In this document: positions 34,289-39,311 of the stretch, in pieces
How positions within the stretch are numbered: position 1 is the stretch's first letter
How the letters are laid out: each line of letters starts with the position of its first letter
Assembly: GCA_020845475.1 (NCBI GenBank)
Contig: JADLFN010000008.1
Location: 1-45,565 of the forward strand
Direction of reading: 5' to 3'
Length of the DNA stretch: 45,565 nt
Origin: Planctomycetota bacterium
Lineage (GTDB): Bacteria > Planctomycetota > UBA8742 > UBA2392
Program-made: the position numbers and the translations under genes
The notes under the pieces: model-generated
Databases searched by the model: none
Seen by the model: the letters and a program-made list of their open reading frames with translations, nothing else
What the model was told of the DNA's origin: nothing

Positions 34289-34310
34289 AGGGCGCGGGAT
34301 GATAGCTTTC

Positions 34311-34446
34311 GAGGTCAGAAGTAAGAAGTCAGAGGTCAGAAGTAGTTCGAGGTCAGAAGTCAGAGGTCAGAAGTCAGAAGAACTGCAAAACAACCGTATG
34401 TAGGGCGCCTTTTACTTCTGACCTCTGACTTCTGACTTCTGACCTC
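34311..34446. repeat. GAGGTCAGAAGT stutter repeat with inverted arm
   Basis: The left arm (34311-34380) is a run of GAGGTCAGAAGT/CAGAAGTCAGAGG-type units. The right arm (34413-34446) is the same unit inverted (ACTTCTGACCTCTGACTTCT). The arms can form a long hairpin. The block occupies the divergent promoter region between pheS and the CPBP-like gene. Confidence 0.8.
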
Positions 34447-34461
34447 ATCTTCGTCTATACT
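34432..34461 (+). promoter_or_regulatory. Promoter candidate for the CPBP-like gene, -35 inside the repeat
   Basis: CTGACT (34432-34437) inside the right repeat arm and TATACT (34456-34461) are separated by 18 bp. The start point would fall at about 34468, right at the GTG 34469 start codon, implying a leaderless or nearly leaderless transcript. Confidence 0.4.
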
Positions 34462-34468
34462 CCGCCGC

Positions 34469-35275
34469 GTGTCTGAACTCACGCCTCGCGCTTTCCTGTC
34501 TGATTTTCGCGCCAACGCGCGCACCTTTGCCGTGCTGGCCTACGTGGCCGCGGCGCTGACGCTGGCGGAGTTCGTGTTTCTTTCCTCGCACTTCGCCGAG
34601 TTCTTCCCGCAATTCACGCGTGTGAACATTCCTGCCTGGTGGTACGGATCCTTTGAAGCCGCGTCTCGCGCGGGCGTCAAGGAGCGCGGGCCGTGGTGGG
34701 GGGCGCTGATGCCTCAGGCGTGGTGGACGGGCGGCACGCTGGTGCTCTGGGTGCTTGTGCCGCTCGTTTTCGCGCGAGTTTCGGGCATAAAAGATCTGGG
34801 CCTCTCATTGCGCGGCTTTGCCGGCAAGTGGTGGCTCTATGGCGCGCTGTTCGCAGTGATGCTGCCGGGGGTGTTATGGGCGAGCACGCAGGAGGGCTTT
34901 CTGCGCACTTACCCGTTCTTGAAACCCTGGGCCTGCGCCAACTGGTGCTGGCTGGTCTTGCTGTGTTATTGGGGGCTCTACGCACTGCAATTTGTGGCCG
35001 TCGAGTTTTTCTTTCGCGGCTTCATGTGCTTTGGACTCGAGCGTGAGTTTGGCCTGGGCGCCATTGGCGTCATGGTCGTGCCCTATTGCATGATTCATTT
35101 CCATAAGCCGCTGCCCGAGGCGCTGGGCGCAATCGTGGCCGGTTTCGTGCTGGGCTGGCTGGCCCTGAAAACCCGCAGCATCTGGGGCGGCGTGTGTTTG
35201 CATATAGCAGTCGCGTTTTCCATGGACGCGCTGGCACTATGGCGCAGTGGGAGTTTCCCTGATCGACTCTTCTAA
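34469..35275 (+). CDS. CPBP-family (Rce1-like) intramembrane protease homologue, divergent motif
   Basis: The 268-aa polytopic membrane protein has about six to seven helices (LAYVAAALTLAEFVFL, GTLVLWVLVPLVFARV, LYGALFAVMLPGVLWA, CWLVLLCYWGLYALQF and later ones). The C-terminal half has the CPBP layout: VEFFFRGFM in place of EExxxR (the first Glu is Val), YCMIHFHKP in place of FxxxH, and a late His in CLHIAVAFSMD. The partly degenerate motif makes proteolytic activity uncertain. It starts at GTG 34469 with no Shine-Dalgarno sequence, consistent with the leaderless promoter suggested above. The stop is followed within 3 nt by the left inverted repeat of the GxxExxY unit. Confidence 0.82.
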   Translation: MSELTPRAFLSDFRANARTFAVLAYVAAALTLAEFVFLSSHFAEFFPQFTRVNIPAWWYGSFEAASRAGVKERGPWWGALMPQAWWTGGTLVLWVLVPLVFARVSGIKDLGLSLRGFAGKWWLYGALFAVMLPGVLWASTQEGFLRTYPFLKPWACANWCWLVLLCYWGLYALQFVAVEFFFRGFMCFGLEREFGLGAIGVMVVPYCMIHFHKPLPEALGAIVAGFVLGWLALKTRSIWGGVCLHIAVAFSMDALALWRSGSFPDRLF

Positions 35276-35278
35276 ACG

Positions 35279-35310
35279 GCGGGCTCACGCAGAGGCGCAG
35301 AGACGCAGAG
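35279..35310 (+). repeat. Left 32-bp inverted repeat flanking the GxxExxY gene
   Basis: This 32-bp sequence begins GCGGGCTCACGCAGAGGC and ends GACGCAGAG. It matches the reverse complement of 35708-35739 at 31 of 32 positions (A versus C at repeat position 23). Its end merges with the Shine-Dalgarno region (AGAGGGAG) of the GxxExxY gene. Confidence 0.9.
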
Positions 35311-35323
35311 GGAGACAACTGCC

Positions 35324-35707
35324 ATGGAATTGAACGAGATTACGGAGAAGATCATTGATGCTGCGGTCACTGTTCATCGCAGGCTTGGGCCGGGCTTGCT
35401 TGAGTCGGTCTATCTGCTCGCGATGGTGCGCGAGCTTGTGCGCCGCGGACTTTCCGTGGCGAGAGAAGTTCCCGTTCGAATTATGTATGACGGCGAAGAC
35501 CTCGGTGAAGGGTTCAGGGCAGACTTGGTGGTCAATGACTTGGTAGTGGTCGAACTCAAGTCTGTGGAACAAGTCCATGCGGTTCACAAGAAGCAACTGC
35601 TCACCTACCTCCGGCTCATGAACAAACGTGTTGGCTTGTTGCTCAACTTCGGTGCCGCGCTAATGAAAGACGGGATCCACCGAGTCGCGAACGGAATAGA
35701 AGACTAA
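35324..35707 (+). CDS. GxxExxY protein (PDDEXK-like nuclease fold)
   Basis: This 127-aa protein has the name-giving motif GPGLLESVY (residues 22-30). It also has a PDDEXK-type core, ADLVVNDLVVVELKSVEQ, with the Asp and the ExK pair at about 66-79. A Gln/Tyr-containing helix follows (HKKQLLTYLRLMNKRVGLLL), then the FGAALMKDGIHR end. The family is widespread, short and functionally undefined; the nuclease fold is known by profile, and activity is not established. ATG 35324 is preceded by GGGAG. The gene is bracketed by 32-bp inverted repeats that begin 1 nt after its stop and end 13 nt before its start. That arrangement suggests gene and repeats form one unit. Confidence 0.93.
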   Translation: MELNEITEKIIDAAVTVHRRLGPGLLESVYLLAMVRELVRRGLSVAREVPVRIMYDGEDLGEGFRADLVVNDLVVVELKSVEQVHAVHKKQLLTYLRLMNKRVGLLLNFGAALMKDGIHRVANGIED

Positions 35708-35739
35708 CTCTGCGTCGCTGCGCCTCTGCGTGAGCCCGC
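35708..35739 (-). repeat. Right 32-bp inverted repeat flanking the GxxExxY gene
   Basis: Begins CTCTGCGTCGCTGCGCC and ends GCGTGAGCCCGC, immediately after the TAA stop of the GxxExxY gene. Its reverse complement matches the left copy at 31 of 32 positions. Confidence 0.9.
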
Positions 35740-35761
35740 TGTACGTTTCAGAGCGAGCCGA

Positions 35762-36244
35762 ATGGATCACCACTCCCCACGCGCCGTTCCAACTAAGCCG
35801 ACGCGTATCGCTGTCGTGGTGTTCGCAGCGCTGTTGCTGATGGGCGCACTCGGCGCGGCGGGCTGGGCCTACTACGTGATTGAGAAGCCGATTACCACAT
35901 CCGAAGTGCGCCAGGCATTGGAGAGCAAACCAGGCAACGTTAGTGATTTGCGAGGGGCGCTCCAAGCTGAGTCATTCTCCAGTTATGCAACTAAGGCTCT
36001 GGATAAGCCCTACGAGGTGGGCCGTGTGGCTAGTGCGAAGTGGATTGCGGAATTGAGTGTTTCAGAAAGGTCCGGCATCGTGTGGTATGGGGCTGAGTTA
36101 CCGCAGGATGTTGAGAACGTCTGGCTCATCACGTCAGTAGCCGAGGTGTCAGACGCATATTTGTCGGCAAAAACGCCACTAAGTCACTACATCCTCTGCA
36201 AGTCTGACGGAACCATTCTAGGGTGGTTGCCGCCGCGCAAGTAG
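35762..36244 (+). CDS. Small membrane-anchored protein, unknown function
   Basis: The 160-aa protein has a short basic N-terminus (SPRAVPTKPTR), one membrane helix at about 17-39 (IAVVVFAALLLMGALGAAGW) and an extracytoplasmic domain of about 120 residues with no conserved motif I know. One Cys lies near the C-terminus (YILCKSDGT). The ribosome binding site is weak (GAGCGAG). It lies between the right repeat of the GxxExxY unit and a partial third copy of that repeat which begins 1 nt after its TAG stop. The gene may thus be cargo of the repeat unit or a host gene into which copies inserted on both sides. Composition looks less GC-rich than the FAD gene downstream. Confidence 0.72.
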   Translation: MDHHSPRAVPTKPTRIAVVVFAALLLMGALGAAGWAYYVIEKPITTSEVRQALESKPGNVSDLRGALQAESFSSYATKALDKPYEVGRVASAKWIAELSVSERSGIVWYGAELPQDVENVWLITSVAEVSDAYLSAKTPLSHYILCKSDGTILGWLPPRK

Positions 36245-36245
36245 C

Positions 36246-36262
36246 GCGCCTCTGCGTGAGCC
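36246..36262 (-). repeat. Partial third copy of the GxxExxY-flanking repeat
   Basis: GCGCCTCTGCGTGAGCC is an exact 17-bp match to the core of the 35708-35739 repeat, in the same orientation, with weaker similarity for a few bases to its left. It sits between the stop of the small membrane protein gene (36244) and the presumed start of the FAD gene (36267). Confidence 0.8.
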
Positions 36263-36266
36263 TGTT

Positions 36267-37865
36267 TTGCCAACTCTTCGCCTCTACAACCTGCAAGTTG
36301 CCCTCGATGCGGACATGCCGCGCGAGTTGCAGCGTCAGGCCGCGGAGCGCCTGGGTGTGGACAAGCTCGGGGCCGTTAACCTCGTCAAGCGCGGCGTGGA
36401 TGCGCGCGAGCGCCCGCCGGTTTTCAATTGCACCGTTGATGTCGAGGTTCCGCCGCGCTTTGACACCGACGACGCGCTCAAGCGCCTGGGCGACAACGCG
36501 CGCATGGCGCCCGCCACGCCGCCGCTTACGTGCGAGCGAAAGGGCAGCGCGAAACTCCGTGGCCGCGTGATTGTGGTTGGCTCGGGCCCCGCAGGCGGCT
36601 TTGCGGCATGGGTCTTAGCGCTCAATGGCTATAGGCCTTTGCTGATCGAGCGCGGCCAGCCGGCGCTCAAACGTCTGCAGCGCATCGGGCTGTTCAATGC
36701 GCGCCGCGTCGAGCTTGATCCCGAAGATAACGCGCTGTTCGGCGAAGGCGGCGCGGGCAGCTTTTCCGACGGCAAGCTCTACACCAGCAACCGCGACGAA
36801 TTCATTCCGCGCGTATTGGAAACGTTTGTTGAGTGCGGCGCGCCGCAGCGCATTTTGGTGGATGCCTCGCCCCACGTCGGCACCGATATTCTCGCGCGCG
36901 TGGTGGTCAAGATGCGCGAGCGCATCATTGCCATGGGCGGCGAAATTCGCTTCGGCGCCAGGCTCAGCGACCTTGAAATCGAGGGCGGCAAATTGGTAGC
37001 CGCGCGGGTCAATGGCGAGCGCATTGAGGCCGGCGCGCTTGTGCTTGCCACGGGCCACAGCGCGCGGGACACTTACGAAATGCTGCTGGCGCGCGGCGTT
37101 TTGCTCGAGGCCAAGCCCTTTCAACTCGGTGTGCGCATCGAGCACGACCAGGAGTTCATCAACAAAGCGCAGCTTGGAAGATACGCGCGCGATGCGCGGC
37201 TGGTGCCCGCGAGCTACGACCTTGCCTGCCACGTCAAAGGCGCGCCGGAGCTGTTTTCATTCTGCATGTGCCCGGGCGGCATCACGATTGCGGCCGTGAG
37301 CGAGCTGGGCTGCCTCAACACCAACGGCATGAGCTTCTCCGTGCGCGCTTCCGGCTATGCCAACAGCGCGCTTGTGACCACGTTTGGCCCCGCCGAGTTC
37401 GGCAACGGGCCGTTGGCCGGCATCGAGTTCCAGCGCCGCTATGAGCGCGCGGCATTTGCGGCGGGCGGCGGCGATTACACCTGCCCCGCGCAGCCCGTCT
37501 CGCACTTTCTGCGCCTGCTCAATTCGCCGAGGCCGCTCAAGGGCACCTATGCGCGCGGGCGCAAATACACGCCGCTGACGCCGCTCTTGCCCGAGAAGCT
37601 GGTGACAGCGCTACGCGCGAACCTGCCCGAGTTCGACAAGCGCATCAAAGGATTCATCTCGGACAGCGCGATATTGCATGCCATTGAGGCCCGCGCAGCT
37701 TCGCCGGTGCGCGTCGTGCGCGACAAGTTGAGCCGTGAGAGTGCCAACGTTGCCGGCCTCTATCCCGTTGGCGAAGGCGCGGGTTACGCCGGCGGCATCG
37801 TCAGCGCGGCCTGCGACGGCATTCACAGCGCACTGGCGCTGTGCGCCAAGTTTGCGCCCGCCTGA
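36267..37865 (+). CDS. FAD-dependent oxidoreductase (COG2509-like)
   Basis: The 532-aa protein belongs to the family of large uncharacterised FAD-dependent dehydrogenases. A ferredoxin-fold-like N-terminal domain (LYNLQVALDADMPRELQRQA ... VFNCTVDVEV) is followed by the Rossmann motif VVGSGPAGGFAAWVLALNG at about residues 101-119. Then come the GEGGAGSFSDGKLYT motif typical of this family, the second nucleotide-binding element ALVLATGHSARDTYEML, and a C-terminal VAGLYPVGEGAGYAGGIVSA. The start is poor: TTG 36267, with no ribosome binding site and only 4 nt after the repeat copy at 36246-36262. No ATG lies nearby, so the repeat may have replaced the original 5' end. The substrate is unknown. 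Confidence 0.9.
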   Translation: MPTLRLYNLQVALDADMPRELQRQAAERLGVDKLGAVNLVKRGVDARERPPVFNCTVDVEVPPRFDTDDALKRLGDNARMAPATPPLTCERKGSAKLRGRVIVVGSGPAGGFAAWVLALNGYRPLLIERGQPALKRLQRIGLFNARRVELDPEDNALFGEGGAGSFSDGKLYTSNRDEFIPRVLETFVECGAPQRILVDASPHVGTDILARVVVKMRERIIAMGGEIRFGARLSDLEIEGGKLVAARVNGERIEAGALVLATGHSARDTYEMLLARGVLLEAKPFQLGVRIEHDQEFINKAQLGRYARDARLVPASYDLACHVKGAPELFSFCMCPGGITIAAVSELGCLNTNGMSFSVRASGYANSALVTTFGPAEFGNGPLAGIEFQRRYERAAFAAGGGDYTCPAQPVSHFLRLLNSPRPLKGTYARGRKYTPLTPLLPEKLVTALRANLPEFDKRIKGFISDSAILHAIEARAASPVRVVRDKLSRESANVAGLYPVGEGAGYAGGIVSAACDGIHSALALCAKFAPA

Positions 37866-39037: not shown

Positions 39038-39249
39038 GGCCCTGAAAGGGCCAAACGCCAATAGCCGGGGGTAGAGCGAGCCGGCAGGCGAGCGCCCCCC
39101 CCCGGTTTGCTCAACCTGATGATGCAAGCCCCAAAGGGGCGTTCGGAGTTGGCGGCCTATCCGGTCGCCCTTTCAGGGCTTGAAATGATTGTGGGCTTGT
39201 TCCGGGGGTTCCTTCGTCGCTCACGCGACTCAGTCACCCCCGGCTATTG
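39038..39249. repeat. Structured intergenic repeat element with nested inverted arms
   Basis: This element fills most of the 379-bp gap between 38932 and 39312, where I see no gene. The outer arms are CAATAGCCGGGGG (39059-39071) and CCCCCGGCTATTG (39237-39249). GCCCTGAAAGGGC at 39039-39051 recurs inverted as GCCCTTTCAGGGC at 39167-39179. A run of nine C residues lies near 39095-39103. Similar CCTGAAAGG/AATAGCCCGGGG elements are dispersed in several environmental phyla. Beyond the right arm, GGCCTTCCAGGCC (about 39258-39270) is another short palindrome. Confidence 0.75.
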
Positions 39250-39311
39250 ACGATTCGGCCTTCCAGGCCGAACTGCTCTGGCGCTCGGAAGATGCGGGTA
39301 ATGGAAATCGC

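Follow-up and report, generated by a model that had tools for sequence, protein, structure and literature searches.

Introduction

Two kinds of described systems, REPtrons and free-standing homing endonuclease genes, come closest to the locus presented here, and neither is fully matched by it. The locus is a gene of the GxxExxY family held between inverted arrays of short repeated units (iterons), and it lies in a stretch of 45,565 nucleotides from a Planctomycetota bacterium (assembly GCA_020845475.1, contig JADLFN010000008.1), hereafter the window. Across the genomes compared, we argue that such a gene and its arms move as one, as a nuclease-driven, homing-like mobile cassette in which the predicted nuclease would recognise its own arms and drive copying, a reading to which we give a probability of about one half. 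In REPtrons, the TnpA-REP gene is bracketed by repetitive extragenic palindromes (REPs). The parts of the literature drawn on here describe this nuclease gene (TnpA-REP, or RAYT) as accompanied by cognate repeats, many non-autonomous copies and repeat-protein co-evolution, the protein being a HuH enzyme that acts on single-stranded, palindromic REPs (PMC8266576). The GxxExxY gene is likewise bracketed by cognate repeats that also occur dispersed and gene-less; unlike the REPtron enzyme, however, its product is of the PD-(D/E)XK type and not HuH, its arms are tandem iteron arrays and not palindromes, and the gene itself, at one fixed location, passes from genome to genome. It resembles free-standing homing endonuclease genes in consisting of one nuclease gene, in having both filled and empty alleles within the same background and, as far as diverged flanks let it be seen, in showing no target-site duplication; in many pairs the gene is also more alike than its flank. 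Known homing genes are, to our knowledge, neither bracketed by inverted iteron arrays nor accompanied by dispersed gene-less relatives, whereas the GxxExxY cassette has both.

Nucleases of the Cas4/RecB-like group share the motif order D, ExK, QxxxY, and in the Cas4 family conserved cysteines hold an iron-sulfur cluster. In fold and motif order GxxExxY resembles these enzymes, solo-Cas4 included; unlike Cas4, the window protein (127 aa) has no cysteine, and therefore no Cas4 iron-sulfur cluster, and no cas1 or cas2 lies beside its gene. A GxxExxY protein has been reported where CRISPRone placed a cas4 gene (PMC8934634), and solo-Cas4 is reported as mainly vertically inherited (PMC5704561), unlike the GxxExxY cassette, which is exchanged between genomes. 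The gene-less derivatives described below recall the miniature inverted-repeat transposable elements (MITEs) of insertion sequences, being short, inverted-ended, internally deleted and alike in their junctions; unlike insertion-sequence systems, the window unit has no recognisable transposase. Heptanucleotide intergenic repeats have been described in Geobacter and Nostoc, with sequences that, in the excerpts considered, differ from GxxExxY arms, and the genome of the algal virus CpV-BQ1 has been reported to encode a GxxExxY protein (PMC12085832). The excerpts of open-licence PMC full text considered here held no link between the GxxExxY family and repeats or mobility.

Results

A first-pass annotation of the window, made from the sequence alone, had pointed to near-perfect inverted repeats hugging the GxxExxY gene and to a third copy of their core behind the next gene, here named orfX. 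Both were borne out. The stretches 35279-35310 and 35708-35739 are inverted copies of each other at 31 of 32 bases (the right arm differs from the inverted left arm by one base), the left arm ends 13 nt before the gene start, the right arm follows directly on the stop codon, and a 17-bp core recurs exactly behind orfX (table 1). On extension the arms reach 35 nt with 94% complementarity. A three-unit array pattern, allowed at most one mismatch, has two occurrences in the window, which are precisely the two arms; 0 of 100 dinucleotide shuffles contained it.

The window unit is one case of a widespread pattern. We gathered 164 GxxExxY loci, comprising 15 from the genome of the window (the own genome), 69 from relatives and the 80 best of at least 579 confirmed matches in named genomes; 159 were usable, one own and four named loci being left out for a missing stop or flank. 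With an inverted flank match defined as a local score of at least 30, own flanks matched in 96 of the 159 loci; the controls gave 218 of 6315 for swapped pairs and 8 of 437 for neighbouring genes, one of the 8 being a possible family member because locus L088 holds two GxxExxY genes. The flank association, which the first-pass annotation had proposed to test in other phyla, was well above both controls. By set, matches were found in 9/14 own loci, 53/69 loci of relatives and 34/76 named loci, the last set being biased since it was chosen by likeness to the window protein; within these best 80, the counts were 4/4 for Cyanobacteriota, 4/5 each for Chloroflexota and Planctomycetota, 5/8 for Pseudomonadota, 6/19 for Bacteroidota, 3/10 for Verrucomicrobiota, 1/4 for Acidobacteriota and 1/2 for archaeal loci. 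In the 96 matching loci the right arm begins a median of 5 nt from the stop codon.

What the first-pass annotation took for a single repeat sequence turned out to be a family of cognate iteron arrays. A typical arm holds three inward-pointing 7-mers, mostly CRCNRAK, spaced 8-10 bp, and the 7-mer varies between loci. Chains of at least three C[AG]CNNA[GT] units pointing inward on both sides occur in 50 of the 159 loci, against 7 in the opposite orientation and a shuffle mean of 0.0, and the unit spacings in these 50 loci are 8 (84 steps), 9 (71), 10 (54), 7 (1) and 11 (1). The arms are therefore tandem 7-mers in one orientation, without a palindromic hairpin, spaced 8-10 in 209 of 211 steps. 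In the own genome (4.27 Mb, 77% complete, in 94 contigs) GxxExxY matches number 15, of which 14 are full length, and many of these copies carry inward inverted arms of the same style with other units (CGCAAAG, CGCCAAG, CGCAGAT, CACGAAG and others). Across 60 genomes, the own one and 59 relatives, three units spaced 8 or 9 apart were found 1150 times, overlapping matches included, against 42 for the reversed pattern. Array number follows GxxExxY number (Spearman 0.79 overall and 0.71 for the 44 genomes not of the own family, against 0.17 for the control), and at least five arrays are present in 27 of 34 genomes with the gene versus 4 of 26 without.

The type of arm, moreover, tracks the protein lineage, a co-variation visible in the sequences themselves. 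In the 83 loci that were typed, from a total of 181 unique ones, the likeness of the proteins correlates with that of their units (Mantel r -0.44, a value matched by 0 of 2000 permutations), and in 45 of the 83 the closest protein in a different genome has the same unit, where 11.1 would be expected. The correlation persists within the own family (27 loci; r -0.32, again 0 of 2000). At the residue inside GxG, number 23 in the window protein, Pro is found in 64 of 71 loci with G-ending units and in none of 12 with T-ending ones.

The window insertion is absent from close relatives. In both same-genus genomes (G001 and G002) the genes flanking it are adjacent, 4 bp apart in G001, and neither GxxExxY nor orfX nor the repeat lies between them; thus, the empty sites proposed by the first-pass annotation do exist. 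These alignments suggest that the insertion is not limited to the gene and two repeats, as first annotated, but seems to span from the left arm to the third arm, and orfX therefore came along. Since the genes on either side share 71-78% identity with their counterparts in the empty-site genomes, its junctions can be placed to within a few bases only. L021 and L030, two other GxxExxY copies of the own genome, are missing from both relatives as well, where the aligned flanks stand 28 bp and 119-139 bp apart, so that all three copies tested are absent.

Exchange is visible at a site between convergent genes common to the genera of Dolichospermum circinale (G061) and Nostoc sp. 106C (G060). With cassette types labelled from arms and orientation, the 16 genomes of the Dolichospermum group comprise three of type A (CGCAGAG arms), five of type B (CGCAAAG), three of type C, in which the gene is inverted and the arms have a TTTCGCGCAAAG end, and one with arms and no gene. 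In three more the two flanks lie apart, the left flank of one (G087) carrying an arm and a gene remnant, and in G088 the site flanks were not found; these four were excluded from the site analysis. The eight genomes of the Nostoc group hold four of type A, two of type B and two empty sites without arms. Filled and empty alleles coexist in closely similar backgrounds (G091 vs G092, flanks 96.5/95.8% identical), and in G061, G085, G080 and G081 flanks that are 96-98% identical enclose cassette genes of different types only 71-77% identical. On a tree of the flanks (20 genomes) the cassette states need 11 changes, against a mean of 10.7 for shuffled labels; for the labels A, B and C on a tree of the genes, 2 changes suffice, the minimum possible, against a shuffled mean of 7.8, and the A clade (from both genera) and the C clade have support of 100/100. 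Among 19 within-genus pairs of the same type, synonymous divergence (dS) is lower in the cassette gene than in the adjacent gene in 17, and under half in 10 (e.g. 0.023 vs 0.413, 0 vs 0.182 and 0.024 vs 0.190); the ratios spread from 0 to 1, which speaks for separate transfer events. Swaps, tree scatter and dS thus indicate that, at a fixed site, short units have been transferred from species to species along with their arms. Judged from these comparisons, the cassette gene spreads horizontally without its flanks, and arm, gene and arm keep together as they move.

The protein is of the predicted kind. The PDDEXK-fold GxxExxY identity given at first pass was upheld by profile matches to TIGR04256 (142.7 bits, cut-off 35) and PF13366 PDDEXK_3 (140.8 bits, cut-off 22). 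Its motif residues are G22-G24-E27-Y30, D67, E77-x-K79 and Q91-xxx-Y95; D67, E77, K79, Q91 and Y95 are invariant among 18 aligned members, so that the Cas4-type PD-(D/E)XK core and QxxxY are present. A structure model (predicted local distance difference test score, pLDDT, 95) finds its best structural match in SSO0001 and also matches 4ic1, and Cas4 profile matches are weak (E 7e-4). The protein thus models as a minimal Cas4/RecB-like nuclease, with nuclease activity predicted. In the 19 cyanobacterial pairs the cassette protein is under purifying selection, with a ratio of nonsynonymous to synonymous divergence of 0.03-0.36 (median 0.11).

Arms also occur without the gene. Dolichospermum-group genomes hold many matches to arms alone; 20 such places were examined in G061 and G078, and an inward partner of at least two units is missing at every one, so that these are single arms of about 30 bp. 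Several single arms in this group (L260-L279, regions L280-L299) sit in the loop of longer palindromes resembling MITE ends, e.g. GGACTTACGCAA...TTGCGTAAGTCC, which suggests nesting. Gene-less inward pairs at near-constant spacing occur in G050, G023 and G020; in G050 (L367-L375) a CACAGAG-type arm pair is found beside or between ACACGAATT-type repeats, one repeat type nested in another. In G032, all 19 stretches around listed arrays match a full element, L183; the middle of the gene is missing in 17, which keep the left and right parts (L395 in an odd, repeated form), and two match by the left part alone. The deletion junction is the same, within 2 nt, in four dispersed copies (L380, L382, L384 and L396), and to judge by their sequences the G032 copies look like amplified non-autonomous derivatives. 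Common sequence extends past the arms here, with a left edge that is sharp in 15 of 19 copies, and all five copies folded have a strong right-hand hairpin, which we take to resemble an integron attC site; therefore, another system may help in this genome. The G032 copies (L380-L398) mostly begin with GTTGGGCGG, followed by GCCCAACAAG and the strong hairpin with unpaired bases, and are spread over many contigs, not in one array. In the own genome (L005-L017), most CGCAGAG cores near contig ends are part of a longer, composite repeat that has a GGGGCGACATATATGTCGCCCC palindrome and is the probable cause of the breaks in the assembly. G028 has 33 three-unit arrays and no GxxExxY match, its repeats being without a gene of their own or served by something else.

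Besides the cassette, the window insertion holds only the orphan orfX, and profile searches recognised no transposase in the unit. The same searches gave orfX no family match, and a protein database search returned two sequences, itself and one 80% relative; by eye, it has a possible N-terminal membrane segment. The neighbours tested were CPBP-protease-like, orphan, FAD-dependent and pheS genes. Inverted 32-nt matches of at least 27 bases within about 1.1 kb number five in the window, and are the GxxExxY arm pair, three overlapping registers of an unrelated palindrome (34311-34446) and a weaker match. The palindrome (34308-34450) is a gene-less inverted pair of tandem heptamers, TCAGAAG/TCAGAGG, matching at 31/32 between pheS and the CPBP-protease-like gene; the weaker match (39041-39267, 27/32) is intergenic.

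Table 1. Features of the GxxExxY insertion, in positions of the window
Feature	Positions	Strand	Description and basis
Left arm	35276..35310	+	Outer GGCTCA(C) end and three inward CGCAGAG iterons starting at 35288, 35296 and 35304 (period 8)
GxxExxY gene, 127 aa, PD-(D/E)XK fold	35324..35707	+	ATG start; profile matches, invariant columns, structure model
Right arm	35708..35742	-	Inverted copy of the left arm, beginning at the stop codon; repeat search
orfX, orphan 160-aa protein	35762..36244	+	Co-inserted with the cassette; absent along with it in G001 and G002
Third, partial arm (17-bp core)	36246..36262	-	Probable right edge of the insertion; repeat search and alignment of relatives
Whole insertion (inferred)	35280..36266		Between CPBP-protease-like gene (34469-35275) and FAD-dependent gene (36267-37865)

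Discussion

The suggestion made at first pass, of a minimal mobile or homing-type unit or else a protein acting on the repeat, draws support from the flank association, the empty sites, the cassette exchange and the repeat-protein co-variation. In the mechanism that we favour, the GxxExxY protein would recognise its own iteron arms or a similar site and cut it, repair would copy arm, gene and arm into the cut, and the copied cassette would replace an empty site or a rival cassette. On this view the unit is likely a very small selfish element, spreading by means of the enzyme that it encodes. An active nuclease, arm binding, a cut that starts copying and the repair step are all predictions of this scheme; the gene-less arm pairs and single arms would be its non-autonomous derivatives or remnants.

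Several observations weigh against this reading. A nuclease cutting its own arms would threaten the donor, and why donor arms survive is its weak point. Inspection by eye of three own-genome sites and the Nostoc-group site, where the flanks have diverged, showed no target-site duplication, nor was a shared target motif seen at the compared sites. Sixty-three of the 159 loci are without a clear inverted match, Bacteroidota having one in 6 of 19, and the family is above cut-off in none of 14 well-known control genomes; thus GxxExxY is widespread, not universal. At the cyanobacterial site, the gene tree does not resolve type B as a single clade; in 9 of the 19 pairs dS falls short of being under half the neighbour's, and in the two pairs with dG079 it is not lower at all. 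The pairs are non-independent, and the two genes may differ in synonymous rate. The co-variation counts, similarly, ignore shared ancestry. Arms in G032 and G023 lie inside a longer common repeat, in G032 with the attC-like end, and another enzyme could move them; also, four of the 26 gene-less genomes, G028 among them, hold at least five array matches. Finally, the genome-wide association of repeat and gene, on which the first-pass annotation staked its proposal, holds for only part of the copies: 14 of 17 exact copies of a 14-base core in the own genome are not beside a found GxxExxY gene, 12 of these 14 being within about 400 bp of a contig end, with the sequence beyond unseen.

Among the alternatives, the one that survives best, unlikely as we consider it, is that the arm, single or paired, is the mobile part, mobilised in trans by a GxxExxY protein whose gene is mostly resident, as TnpA-REP/RAYT is for REP/REPIN. 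A gene bracketed by cognate repeats, dispersed single arms (0/20 with an inward partner) next to gene-less pairs, a repeat type that tracks the protein lineage and an array number that tracks gene number would all be expected of such a system. The gene itself, however, comes and goes, being absent from relatives at 3/3 tested own sites and from 2/8 Nostoc-group genomes and exchanged as part of cassettes, and a search for cases of a bare arm entering a clean site did not show one. It is improbable, too, that arm, gene and arm are passengers of other machinery (that of MITEs, attC-like cassettes or homologous exchange between related cells), the arms offering only recombination homology and the nuclease serving another job such as repair or defence. 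The nesting of arms in longer repeats, seen in G032, G023, several Dolichospermum-group places and the own genome, is consistent with this, as is the attC-like hairpin beside the G032 copies, and a simple flip between arms could account for the inverted cassette C; but a repeat that follows the GxxExxY family across phyla, the closeness of the arm to the stop codon and swaps between flanks still 96-98% identical would be left unexplained. Operators or transcript ends for GxxExxY autoregulation, conserved through protein binding, would fit the tight placement of the arms before start and after stop and their co-variation with the protein, but arms are numerous without the gene, are gained, lost and exchanged together with it and match no Rfam family, which makes such a role very unlikely.

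Overall, we tentatively suggest, beyond the nuclease-driven cassette itself, that GxxExxY elements may form a previously unrecognised, widespread class of prokaryotic mobile DNA: units of about 0.45 kb with one minimal Cas4/RecB-like nuclease between inverted iteron arms, a lineage-specific iteron code and transposase-free, nuclease-driven replacement, seeding bacteria and archaea with gene-less repeats. If so, a family annotated by motif only, with 15 matches in each of two genomes examined, would gain a function, and a class of short intergenic repeats present in many searched genomes would gain a source. It would also be a minimal mobile element whose sole enzyme is a Cas4/RecB-like nuclease, and would bear on the question of how enzymes with this fold came to be recruited for action at DNA ends during CRISPR adaptation. 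The co-variation of arm and protein, such as that of residue 23 with the last base of the unit, would then offer natural pairs of protein and DNA site for the study of specificity.
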